This document shows positions 21,547-27,446 of a stretch of DNA of 64,000 nt, piece after piece. A program made the translations under genes and the position numbers. Origin of the DNA: Bdellovibrionales bacterium CG10_big_fil_rev_8_21_14_0_10_45_34 (GTDB taxonomy: Bacteria > Bdellovibrionota > Bdellovibrionia > Bdellovibrionales > 1-14-0-10-45-34); contig PEZS01000011.1 of NCBI GenBank assembly GCA_002778785.1, positions 416,882 to 480,881 of the forward strand, written 5' to 3'. The stretch's first letter is position 1. Each line of letters starts with the position of its first letter. The notes below the pieces were generated by a model. That model searched no databases. It saw nothing but the letters and a program-made list of their open reading frames with translations, and was not told the DNA's origin.

Positions 21547-23037
21547 GTGATAACAAGACTTATGACGTTTTTAGCCCTCTCACCAATCCTGCTTTTTATC
21601 ATGTTGCTGTTTGTAGTACGCTGGCCGCTATTTAAAGCTGCACCTATCGTATTTCTCTACACAACTATAGTTGCGATAACAATCTGGAAGTCTCCTCTGT
21701 CGGAGCTGTTCTCTGCGGTTGGCAAAGGTGGCCTTCTCAGCCTCGACATCATATTCATAATACTGGGCGCTGTTGTGTTTTTGAGGTTTCTCGAGGGGAC
21801 CGGGCAAATTGTCAAAATGCAAGAGAACCTCAAAGCTTTGTCGCCAGATCCCCGTCTACAAGCAGTCTTTCTGGCTTGGTTTTTTGGAAGCTTCATCGAA
21901 GGAATTTCGGGCTTTGGTACACCCGCCGTAATCGTAGCGCCCCTTCTGGTTGGAATTGGGTTTTCTAAGCTTACTGCGATCAGTATTGCGCTTCTTGCCA
22001 ATAGCACTGCTGTGACCTTTGGTGCAGTGGGCACTCCCGTTCGAATTGGCTTCGCGGATCTTCATGCAAACGGGCTTAACATCTTAGCCGCGAAACTCAG
22101 CATCTTACCCGGGATACTTGTCCCGGTTATGATATTGGGATTCTATGTTCAGTTTGAACTGAACGCTCCCAATAGATGGCGCCACTTTAGATAGGCTTTG
22201 CCAATAGCCGCACTTTCGGGACTTGCATTTGTGATACCCTTTTTAGCTACGGCATATACGGGGCCAGAGTTCCCTTCTATTGTCGCTAGCATTATTGGAT
22301 TTGTTTTTGTCTTAGTAACGATCAGAACTTTCCAACTCGGCCCTCCCCCGCTTTTACCAGTAGCCAGAAATGCGCTGCCGGGTAGTTTATTGCCATTTGC
22401 AAAAAGCTTTTCCCCATACATAGTTTTGTTAGCCCTCTTAGCACTTGGAAAATTTTTATTCAGGCCCTTCTCCTATCACGTCGAAATCGGCGAAAAGTTA
22501 AGTCACAACATCCACCTTTTTAATCCGGGCTTCGCGTTTTTTAGCGCCCTTGTCGTATTAGCTCTTTGGAATAACATGAGACTAAAAACTCTTACGGAAA
22601 TCGTTAAGACGTCCCTCGCGGTCTCTTTCCGAACTGGTGTAACGATTTTTTTTATAAGCTCTGTGGTTTATATTCTTATTGTTTCAGGATCGCTCGAACA
22701 AACTGCTCGTCAGCTTTTAACAGATGATCTGCCGTACTATGCCGCTTTTATGGGAGCCTTTGGTTCGTTTCTGGCAGGAAGCGCGACGGTATCAAACTTG
22801 CTGTTTGCACCGCTGCAGTATGCCGCCTCTGAAGATTTGGGTATTTCAACTACTTTAATCTTGTCGCTTCAGCTCGTGGGAGCCGCCGCTGGAAATATGA
22901 TAGCACTTCCAAATATCCTAGCCGTTCAGGCGTCAGTGCAGCTGGAAGGAAGGGAATCCTTGTTTATTGCCCGCTTAATAGGACCTTGCTTAATCTACCT
23001 AACGTTAGCGACTGTATCGGCCCTGCTTTTTATATGA
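21547..23037 (+). pseudogene. lctP: L-lactate permease interrupted by one in-frame TAG
   Basis: A 496-codon frame encodes a lactate permease of usual length, but codon 216 (22192-22194) is TAG. The sequences either side are continuous permease: before the stop, GSFIEGISGFGTPAVIVAP and the helix ending NAPNRWRHFR; after it, ALPIAALSGLAF in the same frame through to SLQLVGAAAGNMIALPN. No frameshift is needed. The gene is either freshly inactivated, read through, or carries a sequencing error (CAG or AAG to TAG is one base). The start is GTG at 21547 or ATG at 21562. It is divergent from the PPDK_N gene. Confidence 0.85.
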
Positions 23038-24157: not shown

Positions 24158-24478
24158 TTAATCGCGGAAAATTTTGTGCATTGAAGAAACTAGTTTTTTA
24201 ACTTGTTGGCTTTCAATATCGTATATAACATTTTGATTCTTTCTTTGGCCCCGCACAAGCCCATCTTGTTTCATCCGAGTTAGAAACTGAGATACCGCCG
24301 ACTGCGAAGCGCCGCTTAACTCTTCAAGCTCAGATACAGACTTAGGCGCCTCACATAGGTGACACAATATTAAAAGTCTTTGAGGATGAGCCATATTCTT
24401 AAGAATTTGAGACACGAATTCACACTGCTCTAGACTGGGCACATTCGACTTTTTGAACTTCTGTTTAGTTGCAGCCAT
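24158..24478 (-). CDS. ArsR-family repressor, likely sulfur-responsive (BigR/SqrR type)
   Basis: A 106-residue winged-helix regulator. The recognition helix is in SGASQSAVSQFLTRMKQDGL, followed by the wing RKNQNVIYDI. It is divergent from a sulfide-detoxification operon, as bigR and sqrR are. Those repressors sense persulfide with two cysteines, one in the second helix and one near the C-terminus. Here Cys39 and Cys42 (LCHLCEAP) lie in the helix-2 region and Cys19 near the N-terminus, but the C-terminal cysteine is absent, so the sensing pair would be different. The same 20-bp palindrome lies in front of this gene and of the operon. Confidence 0.85.
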   Translation of the reverse strand: MAATKQKFKKSNVPSLEQCEFVSQILKNMAHPQRLLILCHLCEAPKSVSELEELSGASQSAVSQFLTRMKQDGLVRGQRKNQNVIYDIESQQVKKLVSSMHKIFRD

Positions 24479-24557
24479 ACCAAAAACCCTCTACCTTTCT
24501 TCTCGCGGCTATCCGCATAGCACCGACTTTTATAGTTAGCAGAGAAGTCACCAAAAT

Positions 24558-24577
24558 ATATTACAATATTATAATGT
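24558..24577. promoter_or_regulatory. Operator 1: AT-rich palindrome upstream of the ArsR-family gene
   Basis: ATATTACAA-TA-TTATAATGT is a 9-2-9 inverted repeat with two mismatches in its arms, 80 bp upstream of the arsR-type start. It matches operator 2 in geometry and in 16 of the 18 arm positions, which indicates one regulator acting at both places. Confidence 0.65.
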
Positions 24578-24730
24578 TTTAATCAAGTGAGCACTACTGA
24601 ACCTCAGGCTTTTTAATCGAGACTAATTTCGGGGTTATTGGCGAGACCAAAGAGGGACCAATATTGGCTGACGAGCCCGTAGGCTAACACCATGACAAAC
24701 GACGTGCCCCGCGAAAACAACAAATAACGC

Positions 24731-24758
24731 TTGACATATTATAAAATTATAATATATT
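24731..24758 (+). promoter_or_regulatory. Promoter and operator 2 of the sulfide-detoxification operon
   Basis: TTGACA at 24731-24736 and TATATT at 24753-24758 are 16 bp apart. A perfect 9-2-9 palindrome, ATATTATAA-AA-TTATAATAT (24736-24755), fills the spacer and touches both elements. A repressor bound there would block RNA polymerase directly. Confidence 0.7.
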
Positions 24759-24775
24759 AATATGAGGAGCTGAAA

Positions 24776-24811
24776 ATGGCTTTAGGTCAATTTAAACTGA
24801 AACTAATGTGA
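24776..24811 (+). CDS. Possible 11-codon leader peptide
   Basis: ATG at 24776 follows GAGGAG by 6 nt and opens a frame of 11 codons (MALGQFKLKLM) ending in TGA, 26 nt before the rhodanese start, which has its own GGAGGAGG. The good ribosome site is the only support. It may be a leader or the relic of a lost first gene. Confidence 0.3.
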   Translation: MALGQFKLKLM

Positions 24812-24837
24812 TGTGAGTAGTTACGGAGGAGGAGCAA

Positions 24838-25386
24838 ATGAAAGAGGTTATCATCGACGTTAGAGAGCAAGATGAATACAAGGCGGAGCGGATCGAGAAT
24901 TCAATCAACCTCCCCTTGTCCCATTTTGCGACGGTTGCGCCAGGAGCACTTTCAAACTTTATGGATTCAAAAGTGATTATCATGTGCCGAAGCGGCAAAC
25001 GGGCCGAGCTAGCCATGGGTCAAGCACGGCAGTTAGGTTTTGAACCTGCCGGTGGATTCGAGGTTTACTCCGGCGGCATACTTAAGTGGAAACAGCAGCT
25101 GAGGCCAGTGATCTCGGGGGTGAAGCATCATCTGCCAATTTTGCGTCAAACTCACTTGGCGGCCGGCTTGATTGCCTTATTCGGTGCTATCTTAGGATTT
25201 ACGGTGCACCCAGGTTTCTTTTTGATGTCGGGTTTCGTAGGCCTAGGGCTCACAGTTGCCGGCGCAACTGGACTTTGCTTGATGAGCGAAATTTTAGCTA
25301 AAATGCCATGGAACAAAAACATTCCAGACATAAAACGAGAGGTTTGCGCAGCCACTAAAGGGGATAGCTCATGTCAAACAATCTAA
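24838..25386 (+). CDS. Rhodanese with DUF2892 membrane tail (YgaP-like)
   Basis: A 182-residue sulfurtransferase. Residues 1-95 are a rhodanese domain with the active-site loop CRSGKR (Cys50). Residues about 118-160 form two membrane helices of the DUF2892/YgaP type. It moves sulfane sulfur at the inner membrane and works beside the next gene, whose start lies 16 bp inside this one. First gene of the operon after the tiny leader frame, under operator 2. GGAGGAGG precedes the ATG. Confidence 0.88.
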   Translation: MKEVIIDVREQDEYKAERIENSINLPLSHFATVAPGALSNFMDSKVIIMCRSGKRAELAMGQARQLGFEPAGGFEVYSGGILKWKQQLRPVISGVKHHLPILRQTHLAAGLIALFGAILGFTVHPGFFLMSGFVGLGLTVAGATGLCLMSEILAKMPWNKNIPDIKREVCAATKGDSSCQTI

Positions 25387-26120
25387 AATCGGAGGAAAAA
25401 GTGGTAAGGCAACAAATTTTCAGACAACTCTTCGACGAAGCAACTTGGACTTATACCTACCTGATTGCAGATCCAGATTCTCTAGAGGGAATCCTGATAG
25501 ATCCAGTTGATGAAAAAGCAGAGCGCGATCTGAGTCTTATTAAAGAACTTGGCATTAAACTTAAATACACTATGGAAACTCATACCCACGCCGACCACAT
25601 CACTGGTGCTAGCTTAATTTCTCAGCAAACGGGCGCGAAAAAAGTTGTCGGCAAGCGCTCGGGGGCAGAGTGTGCCGATGTCTTTGTAGATGACGGCGAC
25701 ATTTTGGAGTTTGGCAGATACAAGGTAAAAGCTCTATCTACTCCCGGACACACGGATGGTTGCACAAGTTACGTCGTAGAAGACAAAGCTTTCACTGGCG
25801 ATGCACTGTTTGTTCGCGGAACCGGTCGAACTGACTTTCAACAAGGATCGGCAGAGGTGCTATATGACAGCATCTACAACAAGTTGTTCAGTCTACCAGA
25901 GGATACCTTTGTTTACCCTGGGCATGACTACAAAGGCGCAACCGTATCTACCATACGAGAGGAGAAGCTGTTTAACCCAAGAGTAAAAGTGGGAATAACG
26001 AAGCAGCAGTTTGCGGAAACTATGAAGAATCTCAAACTAGCAAACCCCAAGAAGATCCACGAAGCCGTTCCGGCCAATTTAAAGTGCGGTCAAAAAGACC
26101 TCACAAGTGTTCAACAGTGA
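25371..26120 (+). CDS. Persulfide dioxygenase (ETHE1-type MBL-fold enzyme)
   Basis: A 249-residue metallo-beta-lactamase-fold enzyme that oxidises glutathione persulfide to sulfite. The mononuclear iron ligands are in place: HTHADH at 71-76, His127 in TPGHTDG, and Asp144 in FTGDALF, followed by RGTGRTDFQ, a signature of ETHE1-like persulfide dioxygenases, and YPGHDYKG. It overlaps the rhodanese gene, which can supply persulfide sulfur, and is followed by a TauE/SafE exporter that can remove the sulfite made. Confidence 0.9.
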   Translation: MSNNLKSEEKVVRQQIFRQLFDEATWTYTYLIADPDSLEGILIDPVDEKAERDLSLIKELGIKLKYTMETHTHADHITGASLISQQTGAKKVVGKRSGAECADVFVDDGDILEFGRYKVKALSTPGHTDGCTSYVVEDKAFTGDALFVRGTGRTDFQQGSAEVLYDSIYNKLFSLPEDTFVYPGHDYKGATVSTIREEKLFNPRVKVGITKQQFAETMKNLKLANPKKIHEAVPANLKCGQKDLTSVQQ

Positions 26121-26129
26121 CCCACTAAA

Positions 26130-26894
26130 ATGGGATACCTTGGCGCACTTGTAATGGGAATTGTGCTTGGGCTAACCGGCGGCGGTGGCTCAATACTAAC
26201 TGTTCCTATACTTGTTTACCTCTTTGGCCTGTCAGCGTCTGTGGCGACGGGCTATTCTCTGTTCATAGTGGGGGTTTCGGCAAGTGTTGGTGCGTGGGGG
26301 TACGCTAACAAAGGGCAGGTTGCATTTAAAGAAGGATTTCAGTTCGCCCTGCCCGCACTCATCGGAGTATTCGTAGCAAGACGCTTTATTGTTCCCGCCC
26401 TGCCCGATGTCATTTTTCAAATTAATGACCTTGTTTTAACAAAAGATCGACTCATTCTAACGGCGTTTGGAATAGTTACCCTGTTGGCTTCTTTCACAAT
26501 GATTCGCGGACAAGGAGCAAAGTCGCCCGCAAAAAGTTCTTTCCTAAGAGTTGCGGCACAGGGGCTAGTAATTGGAGTCATAACAGGTTTCGTTGGAGCA
26601 GGAGGAGGGTTTTTGATCGTACCCGCTCTTGTTCTTATGCTTGGTCTTGACATGAAAAGAGCCGTGGGAACATCGCTGGCAATAATTGCCTTTAATTCTA
26701 CTTTGGGTTTTACAGCTGATCTACAAAGTTATCCACAAGTCGACTGGAATTTACTGGGCGCAGTCAGCGCTTTGTCGATCTTCGGAGTAGTCATCGGAAC
26801 CTATTTATCGCGGTTCATACCTGCCGTGACACTCAAAAAGGCATTTGGATATTTTGTGTTAGCGATGTCTCTTGTAATTATTATTAGCCCCTAG
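26130..26894 (+). CDS. TauE/SafE-family sulfite/organosulfonate exporter
   Basis: A 254-residue membrane protein with about eight helices and the two glycine-rich family repeats: GIVLGLTGGGGSILTVPIL near 10-28 and VITGFVGAGGGFLIVPALV near 150-168. It lies 9 nt after the persulfide dioxygenase stop and is the last gene of the operon. Export of sulfite produced by that enzyme is the likely task, by analogy with bigR operons. Confidence 0.9.
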   Translation: MGYLGALVMGIVLGLTGGGGSILTVPILVYLFGLSASVATGYSLFIVGVSASVGAWGYANKGQVAFKEGFQFALPALIGVFVARRFIVPALPDVIFQINDLVLTKDRLILTAFGIVTLLASFTMIRGQGAKSPAKSSFLRVAAQGLVIGVITGFVGAGGGFLIVPALVLMLGLDMKRAVGTSLAIIAFNSTLGFTADLQSYPQVDWNLLGAVSALSIFGVVIGTYLSRFIPAVTLKKAFGYFVLAMSLVIIISP

Positions 26895-26933: not shown

Positions 26934-27446
26934 TTATTTTCGGGCTATTGGCAAGCCTTCCTCATTCCACTTCAACATGCCGCCTGACATATTGGCCACT
27001 TTTTCAAATCCCCCCTGTTGACTTTCGAGGGTGGCCTGTCCAGACCGCCCACCACTTCGGCATATGAAAACAATCTCACTCTCTTTATCCGCAGTTTGTA
27101 GAAACCGGCTTAACTCCGGACCTAACGTAACAAGCGTTGCTCCCGCAATATGGCCGAGCTCCCCATTGAACTCCTCAGGTCTTCTAACGTCGATGAGCAT
27201 AAGTTTGTCTTTATTTTGATTAACTGCAGATGGCAAAACTTCTGGGATCCCATTGTTTATGACCGGATGAAGAGTTCTTTCGCTATTTTTTTGCACTTTG
27301 CCTCCTGAAAAGCCGATGCCAAGGCTATTTGTTTCTATTTTACGACGCTTTATGCTCCACCATACTTTACCAAAGAGCGAGCCGTCGAGCATATGATACT
27401 TCCCTTGCATAGGTGCGCCAACCTTCGTATAGATACTAAGTGACAA
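26934..27446 (-). CDS. Rhodanese-domain protein
   Basis: A 170-residue protein: about 60 residues of unclear N-terminus, then a rhodanese domain with LMLIDVRRPEEFNGELGHI and the active loop CRSGGRS (Cys129). Convergent to the TauE gene and tail-to-tail with the sulfide operon. The listed start overlaps the divergent psd start by 7 bp; ATGs at 27410 and 27392 are alternatives that avoid the overlap. Probably part of the same sulfur metabolism. Confidence 0.8.
   Translation of the reverse strand: MSLSIYTKVGAPMQGKYHMLDGSLFGKVWWSIKRRKIETNSLGIGFSGGKVQKNSERTLHPVINNGIPEVLPSAVNQNKDKLMLIDVRRPEEFNGELGHIAGATLVTLGPELSRFLQTADKESEIVFICRSGGRSGQATLESQQGGFEKVANMSGGMLKWNEEGLPIARK

Follow-up and report, generated by a model that had tools for sequence, protein, structure and literature searches.

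Putative operators of a BigR/SqrR-like ArsR-family repressor at sulfur-oxidation and thioredoxin loci of a Bdellovibrionales bacterium

Results

Gene organisation and palindromes at the arsR locus

The window analysed here, meaning the whole stretch of 64,000 nucleotides, contains an arsR gene (24158..24478, minus strand) that encodes a 106-residue BigR/SqrR-like ArsR-family repressor. Divergent to it lies a plus-strand operon spanning 24838-26894, whose three genes encode a rhodanese with a YgaP-like transmembrane domain (24838..25386; PF00581, PF11127), an ETHE1-like persulfide dioxygenase of the metallo-beta-lactamase fold (25371..26120; PF00753), and a TauE/SafE-family sulfite exporter (26130..26894; PF01925). 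The best NCBIfam match of the dioxygenase is to the dioxygenase half of Blh, at a score below the Blh cut-off. A second rhodanese gene (26934-27446, minus strand) is convergent with the TauE gene, and no 28-bp element of the kind described below was found near it at up to five mismatches. Elsewhere in the window, a permease-like frame (21547-23037, plus strand) is interrupted near 22192 by an in-frame stop, leaving pieces of 215 and 279 residues.

The sequence-only reading had reported a perfect 20-bp palindrome of 9-2-9 spacing, ATATTATAAAATTATAATAT, at 24736-24755 upstream of the rhodanese-dioxygenase-TauE operon, together with a degenerate copy, ATATTACAATATTATAATGT, at 24558-24577 upstream of arsR, which departs from the 9-2-9 pattern at two positions; both were found at these places. 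The two palindromes are real features beyond chance, as the 20-bp pattern, allowing three mismatches, occurs four times in the 64-kb window when 0.03 matches are expected from shuffled sequence. A sigma-70-like promoter, TTGACA-16-TATATT, with 11 of 12 consensus positions lies at 24731..24758 on the plus strand, and the perfect palindrome therefore covers the -35 and -10 of the operon, as had also been claimed. Between this promoter and the rhodanese start there is an 11-codon ORF (24777-24812, plus strand) with a strong Shine-Dalgarno sequence, GAGGAG, which is possibly a leader ORF.

Each 20-bp site is overlapped by a second copy shifted by 8 bp. In a logo of the arsR-upstream sites of 35 relatives, a central 12-bp palindrome, ATATTATAATAT, is followed by two free bases and then TAATAT, with ATATTA partially represented on the opposite flank, giving an enlarged two-fold element of 28 bp, ATATTA-N2-ATATTATAATAT-N2-TAATAT. 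The palindromes first reported are parts of this larger element. The predicted operator of the operon (24736..24763, plus strand) matches the 28 bp with one mismatch, includes the perfect palindrome and overlaps the promoter, and the predicted operator of arsR (24558..24585, with the better match on the minus strand) has three mismatches, includes the degenerate copy and matches the 18-bp core, ATTATAATATNNTAATAT, exactly. The two are spaced 178 bp apart, about 17 turns, so that DNA looping between them would be possible.

Known operator types were also compared. No SqrR-type ATTC-N8-GAAT box was found at up to one mismatch in 24479-24837; the window as a whole holds 33 such boxes, below the shuffled mean of 42.8, and these were set aside. 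The region upstream of E. coli ygaV was rejected as an operator cognate, its best core match having five mismatches.

Copies of the element in the genome and across the class

Scanning the whole 3.06-Mb genome for the 9-2-9 motif, a check that the sequence-only reading had proposed, led at up to three mismatches in the 20-bp pattern to three places only, namely the two window sites and C16:183278-183305, with six matches per strand for the pattern against five for a reversed control of the same letters. The exact 18-bp core occurs three times in the genome and the 28-mer, at up to three mismatches, in three places, with none for the reversed control in either case. At two mismatches the core yields one additional isolated site (C5:49732).

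The third site, on another contig (C16:183278-183305, equivalent to L005 7779-7806), is directly upstream of a thioredoxin gene (L005 7414-7764, minus strand), across from which a gene for a small YgaP-TM-like protein (L005 7942-8151) runs divergently. Here, as at the operon promoter, the final base of TTGACA is the first base of the operator. A PF01022 search of the genome at E<=0.001 returned a single match, leaving arsR as the sole recognisable gene of its type. The earlier prediction that one repressor switches both window transcripts is thus strengthened by the genome-wide uniqueness of the sites, by the single PF01022 match and by footprinting in relatives, but it had missed the thioredoxin target. 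These data give good support to a predicted regulon in which one repressor would govern arsR, the dioxygenase operon and the thioredoxin locus.

Among 143 genomes of the class, 47 carry repressor relatives at E<=1e-10. The 28-mer, at up to three mismatches, gave 41 merged sites in 38 of the 143 genomes, compared with three for the reversed control; 34 of these sites are no more than 200 bp away from an arsR match, and a site is present in 35 of the 47 arsR-bearing genomes as against 3 of the 96 others (Fisher 1e-19, kinship ignored). The core and 28-mer patterns were drawn up once the sites of the window and the sequences upstream of arsR in the relatives had been seen, and it is therefore with counts that are partly circular that the core was found within 200 bp upstream of arsR in 39 of 50 relatives at up to two mismatches (0.8% of shuffles, 3 of 165 other genes) and in 33 of 50 at up to one (0.1% of shuffles, 0 of 165 other genes). 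The remaining 11 of the 50 have no core site upstream of arsR at up to two mismatches.

The placement of sites away from arsR in other genomes is free of that circularity. Four of five such sites precede recognisable target genes: thioredoxin-OsmC in G025 and G140, dioxygenase-YeeE-TauE in G049, and OsmC-DUF302 in G130. The fifth, in G142, is close to a contig end with no recognisable target beside it. G072, the nearest relative, lacks any site outside its own arsR locus, which means that control of thioredoxin is not shared with it. In G140, the operator is followed by a thioredoxin gene (L200 3163-3396) that is apparently broken into two frames; the adjoining OsmC gene is intact.

One-mismatch core sites in four genomes (G213:C101, G101, G108:C201 and G097), far from arsR and in or by unrelated genes, were attributed to chance, and two-mismatch core sites in eight genomes were rejected, since in the AT-rich genomes among these they did not exceed the control. 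In the arsR stretches fetched for the 50 relatives we counted rhodanese or dioxygenase genes in 34 and TauE in 19 (both after subtraction of the window), thioredoxin in 14, OsmC in 13 and YgaP-TM in 8. The operator abuts the arsR ATG in many relatives (L054, L055, L056, L060, L063 and others), where an mRNA starting from the likely -10 would be nearly leaderless.

The repressor and its cysteines

The repressor scores 44.1 bits against HTH_5 (PF01022; cut-off 22), which places it in the ArsR/SmtB family, and 70.1 bits against NF033788 (cut-off 55); against the BigR equivalog NF040642 it reaches 61.5 bits, below the cut-off of 155. Its closest sequence matches are YgaV, SqrR, HlyU and BigR. The nearest fold to its predicted model (pLDDT 90.7) is SqrR 6o8k (Z 17.1), with residues 14-106 corresponding to 16-108, and from this constant offset of two it follows that C39 equals SqrR C41 and position 105 equals SqrR C107. 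The neighbourhood, with its rhodanese and sulfur transport genes and an operator on the promoter, is also that of BigR, SqrR and YgaV. The protein is a relative of these sensors, and can be described as a variant among them because it lacks their second cysteine and falls below the BigR equivalog cut-off.

Its cysteines are C19 on alpha 1 and C39 and C42 on alpha 2. Cysteine frequencies were taken from 130 aligned sequences of the phylum, the set excluding L252 (no tblastn match), L037 (a duplicate of L038), G316 and G160 (stops) and G241 (partial); of the 51 sequences known at an earlier stage, 48 entered alignment A1. Cysteine occupies position 19 in 97 of the 130 sequences, position 39 in 107, position 42 in 3, position 55 in 96 and position 105 in 121. 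The alpha-2 sensor cysteine is therefore present, C39 aligning with SqrR C41 by structure and with the family cysteine by sequence. At the alpha-5/C-terminal position the window repressor has Arg105, in the alignment and in the structural match to SqrR alike, which bears out the earlier statement that this cysteine is lacking. That statement had named Cys19, Cys39 and Cys42 as being there instead; all three are present, but Cys39 is the ordinary sensor cysteine and Cys19, probably ancestral in the phylum, is widespread, leaving Cys42 alone as near-private. There is no adjacent alpha-3 pair of the RexT type, and the model helix 48-55 contains no cysteine.

A misread start or frame, the refutation foreseen for the missing cysteine, does not account for it, no IFC or IYC end being found in any of the three frames read across the 3' end of the gene. 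Nine of the 130 sequences, the window repressor among them, lack C105; the eight others have Asn, Ser, Gly or Ala there, and one of these lies near the window repressor in the tree. L118, which is 57% identical and from another family, likewise lacks C105, having C19 and C39 only, and has the same arsR|rhodanese-dioxygenase-TauE layout with an exact core site; it groups loosely, with weak support, with the window repressor and with L038, which has C19, C39 and C105. With other relatives lacking C105, one of them in the same layout, the loss is no misread frame and probably no sequencing slip, and the alignment and tree indicate that it is real, derived and recurrent.

A group of paralogs (L051-L085; 19 tree members) has Gly or Ser at 39, keeps C19 and mostly keeps C55 and C105; two of the 19 (L075, L083) also lack C105, and members often adjoin thioredoxin, OsmC or TolC/RND efflux genes. 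Across the first 71 sequences C19 was present in 24/24 of those that had lost C39 or C105 and in 37/47 of the rest, and across 59 new sequences in 5/5 and 31/54 (Fisher p 0.15 for these alone), which pooled gives 29/29 and 68/101. A tree-aware test on independent pairs returned p 1 with three usable pairs only, so that we treat this pattern as a lead.

Discussion

We consider it quite probable that the palindromes serve a single ArsR repressor as operators, a sulfane-sulfur-responsive protein of the BigR/SqrR/YgaV kind that blocks three loci until persulfide or polysulfide brings about release. Reduced repressor dimers would occupy the AT-only 28-bp element spanning the -35 and -10, and, once bound, would keep RNA polymerase off arsR, the rhodanese-persulfide dioxygenase-TauE operon and the thioredoxin/YgaP-TM locus. 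Persulfide or polysulfide would then modify cysteine thiols, the repressor would leave the DNA, and the induced enzymes would oxidise, reduce and export surplus sulfur. Binding, repression and the identity of the inducer are what we infer here.

Because the palindromes are made of A and T only, contain TATAAT-like words and overlap a -35/-10, they could be generic strong-promoter or DNA-bending sequences and no operators at all; this is hardly credible when the core, at up to one mismatch, precedes 33 of 50 arsR genes and 0 of 165 other genes, and when there are just three sites in 3.06 Mb. It is improbable, if less so, that Cys39 and Cys42 serve the repressor to detect a metal, arsenite or peroxide in place of persulfide. 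The ligands of the ArsR family are diverse, and RexT, with its adjacent Cys40-Cys41, is described as sensing H2O2 and controlling a thioredoxin gene (PMC8960804). Yet the targets here are a rhodanese, a persulfide dioxygenase and TauE, the nearest sequences and folds are YgaV, SqrR, HlyU and BigR, alpha 3 has no CXC, and Cys42 is unconserved.

The loss of C105 bears more heavily on the sensing step, which may be broken, since the residue lost through C105R is one on which the persulfide response of SqrR depends (PMC10451225). The protein might have become a poor or blind sensor that still binds its operators, its C-terminal cysteine lost by drift and the operon constitutively repressed or leaky. 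We regard this as a less probable outcome that nonetheless deserves real weight: the Arg105 codon, CGC, is one base from a cysteine codon, C105 is missing in nine of 130 sequences, and, in the accounts given in PMC10451225 and PMC12423496, SqrR variants lacking one or the other cysteine bind DNA and give no response, and sHdrR C116S behaves in vivo as a weakened repressor. The same accounts have Hyphomicrobium SoxR C116S retaining a weak polysulfide response, however, and no damage is seen here in any of the three operators, in the repressor frame or in the operon genes; L118, equally without C105, has the same layout and keeps an exact core site. That single base could also mean that Arg105 arose in sequencing or assembly and hides an ordinary C39-C105 sensor. 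We think this very improbable, given that eight other sequences, including a tree neighbour of the window repressor, have Asn, Ser, Gly or Ala in place of C105, and that the genome is 100% complete with contamination of 0.51.

If the repressor does respond to persulfide, as we favour, then, given the loss of C105, its usual partner on alpha 5, C39 would act together with C19 on alpha 1 or with C42, one turn further along alpha 2; the response would perhaps be weaker than in relatives. This pairing is our best guess and the most speculative part of the proposal. A new persulfide-sensing pair, as the sequence-only reading had suggested, is possible; many sHdrR-like proteins are reported to lack both cysteines (PMC12423496, 2025), so that absence alone is not new. 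More broadly, one might imagine a phylum-wide three-cysteine switch with exchangeable partners, in which C39-C105 would be the ordinary pair, C19-C105 that of the Gly39 thioredoxin/OsmC paralogs, and C19-C39 that of the window repressor and its C105-less kin, with C42 as a helper specific to the lineage, a scheme that we hold to be doubtful.

For the phylum of Bdellovibrio, the analysis provides a concrete predicted operator, with its regulon, for sulfane-sulfur control; among the matches listed from the open-licence literature, no paper described such a regulon in the Bdellovibrio group. It also points to natural variants that lack the 'required' C-terminal cysteine and sit beside intact targets, which opens the two-cysteine rule for persulfide sensors of the ArsR type to a direct test.

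With BigR, SqrR, YgaV, HlyU and SoxR the window repressor shares its fold, the alpha-2 cysteine (C39, equivalent to SqrR C41, BigR C42 and YgaV C31), the adjacency of rhodanese, persulfide dioxygenase and TauE genes, and an operator on the promoter, the operators of BigR and YgaV being described as overlapping the -35 and -10 (PMC5823870, PMC9774250). It differs from them in lacking the alpha-5/C-terminal cysteine and in its predicted operator, ATATTA-N2-ATATTATAATAT-N2-TAATAT. The bigR operon of Xylella and Agrobacterium, as described in PMC5823870, likewise combines a repressor, a sulfur transferase, a dioxygenase, a TauE exporter and a repressor-covered promoter, but its transferase and dioxygenase are fused (Blh) and BigR is encoded inside the operon, whereas here each enzyme has its own gene, arsR runs divergently, and the predicted regulon also takes in a thioredoxin locus. 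RexT, the cyanobacterial H2O2 sensor, resembles the window repressor in its ArsR scaffold, its thioredoxin gene target and its close cysteines (here C39 and C42); in RexT, however, Cys40 and Cys41 are adjacent and on alpha 3 (PMC8960804), whereas Cys39-x-x-Cys42 lies on alpha 2 in the protein described here, whose predicted targets include genes of sulfur oxidation.
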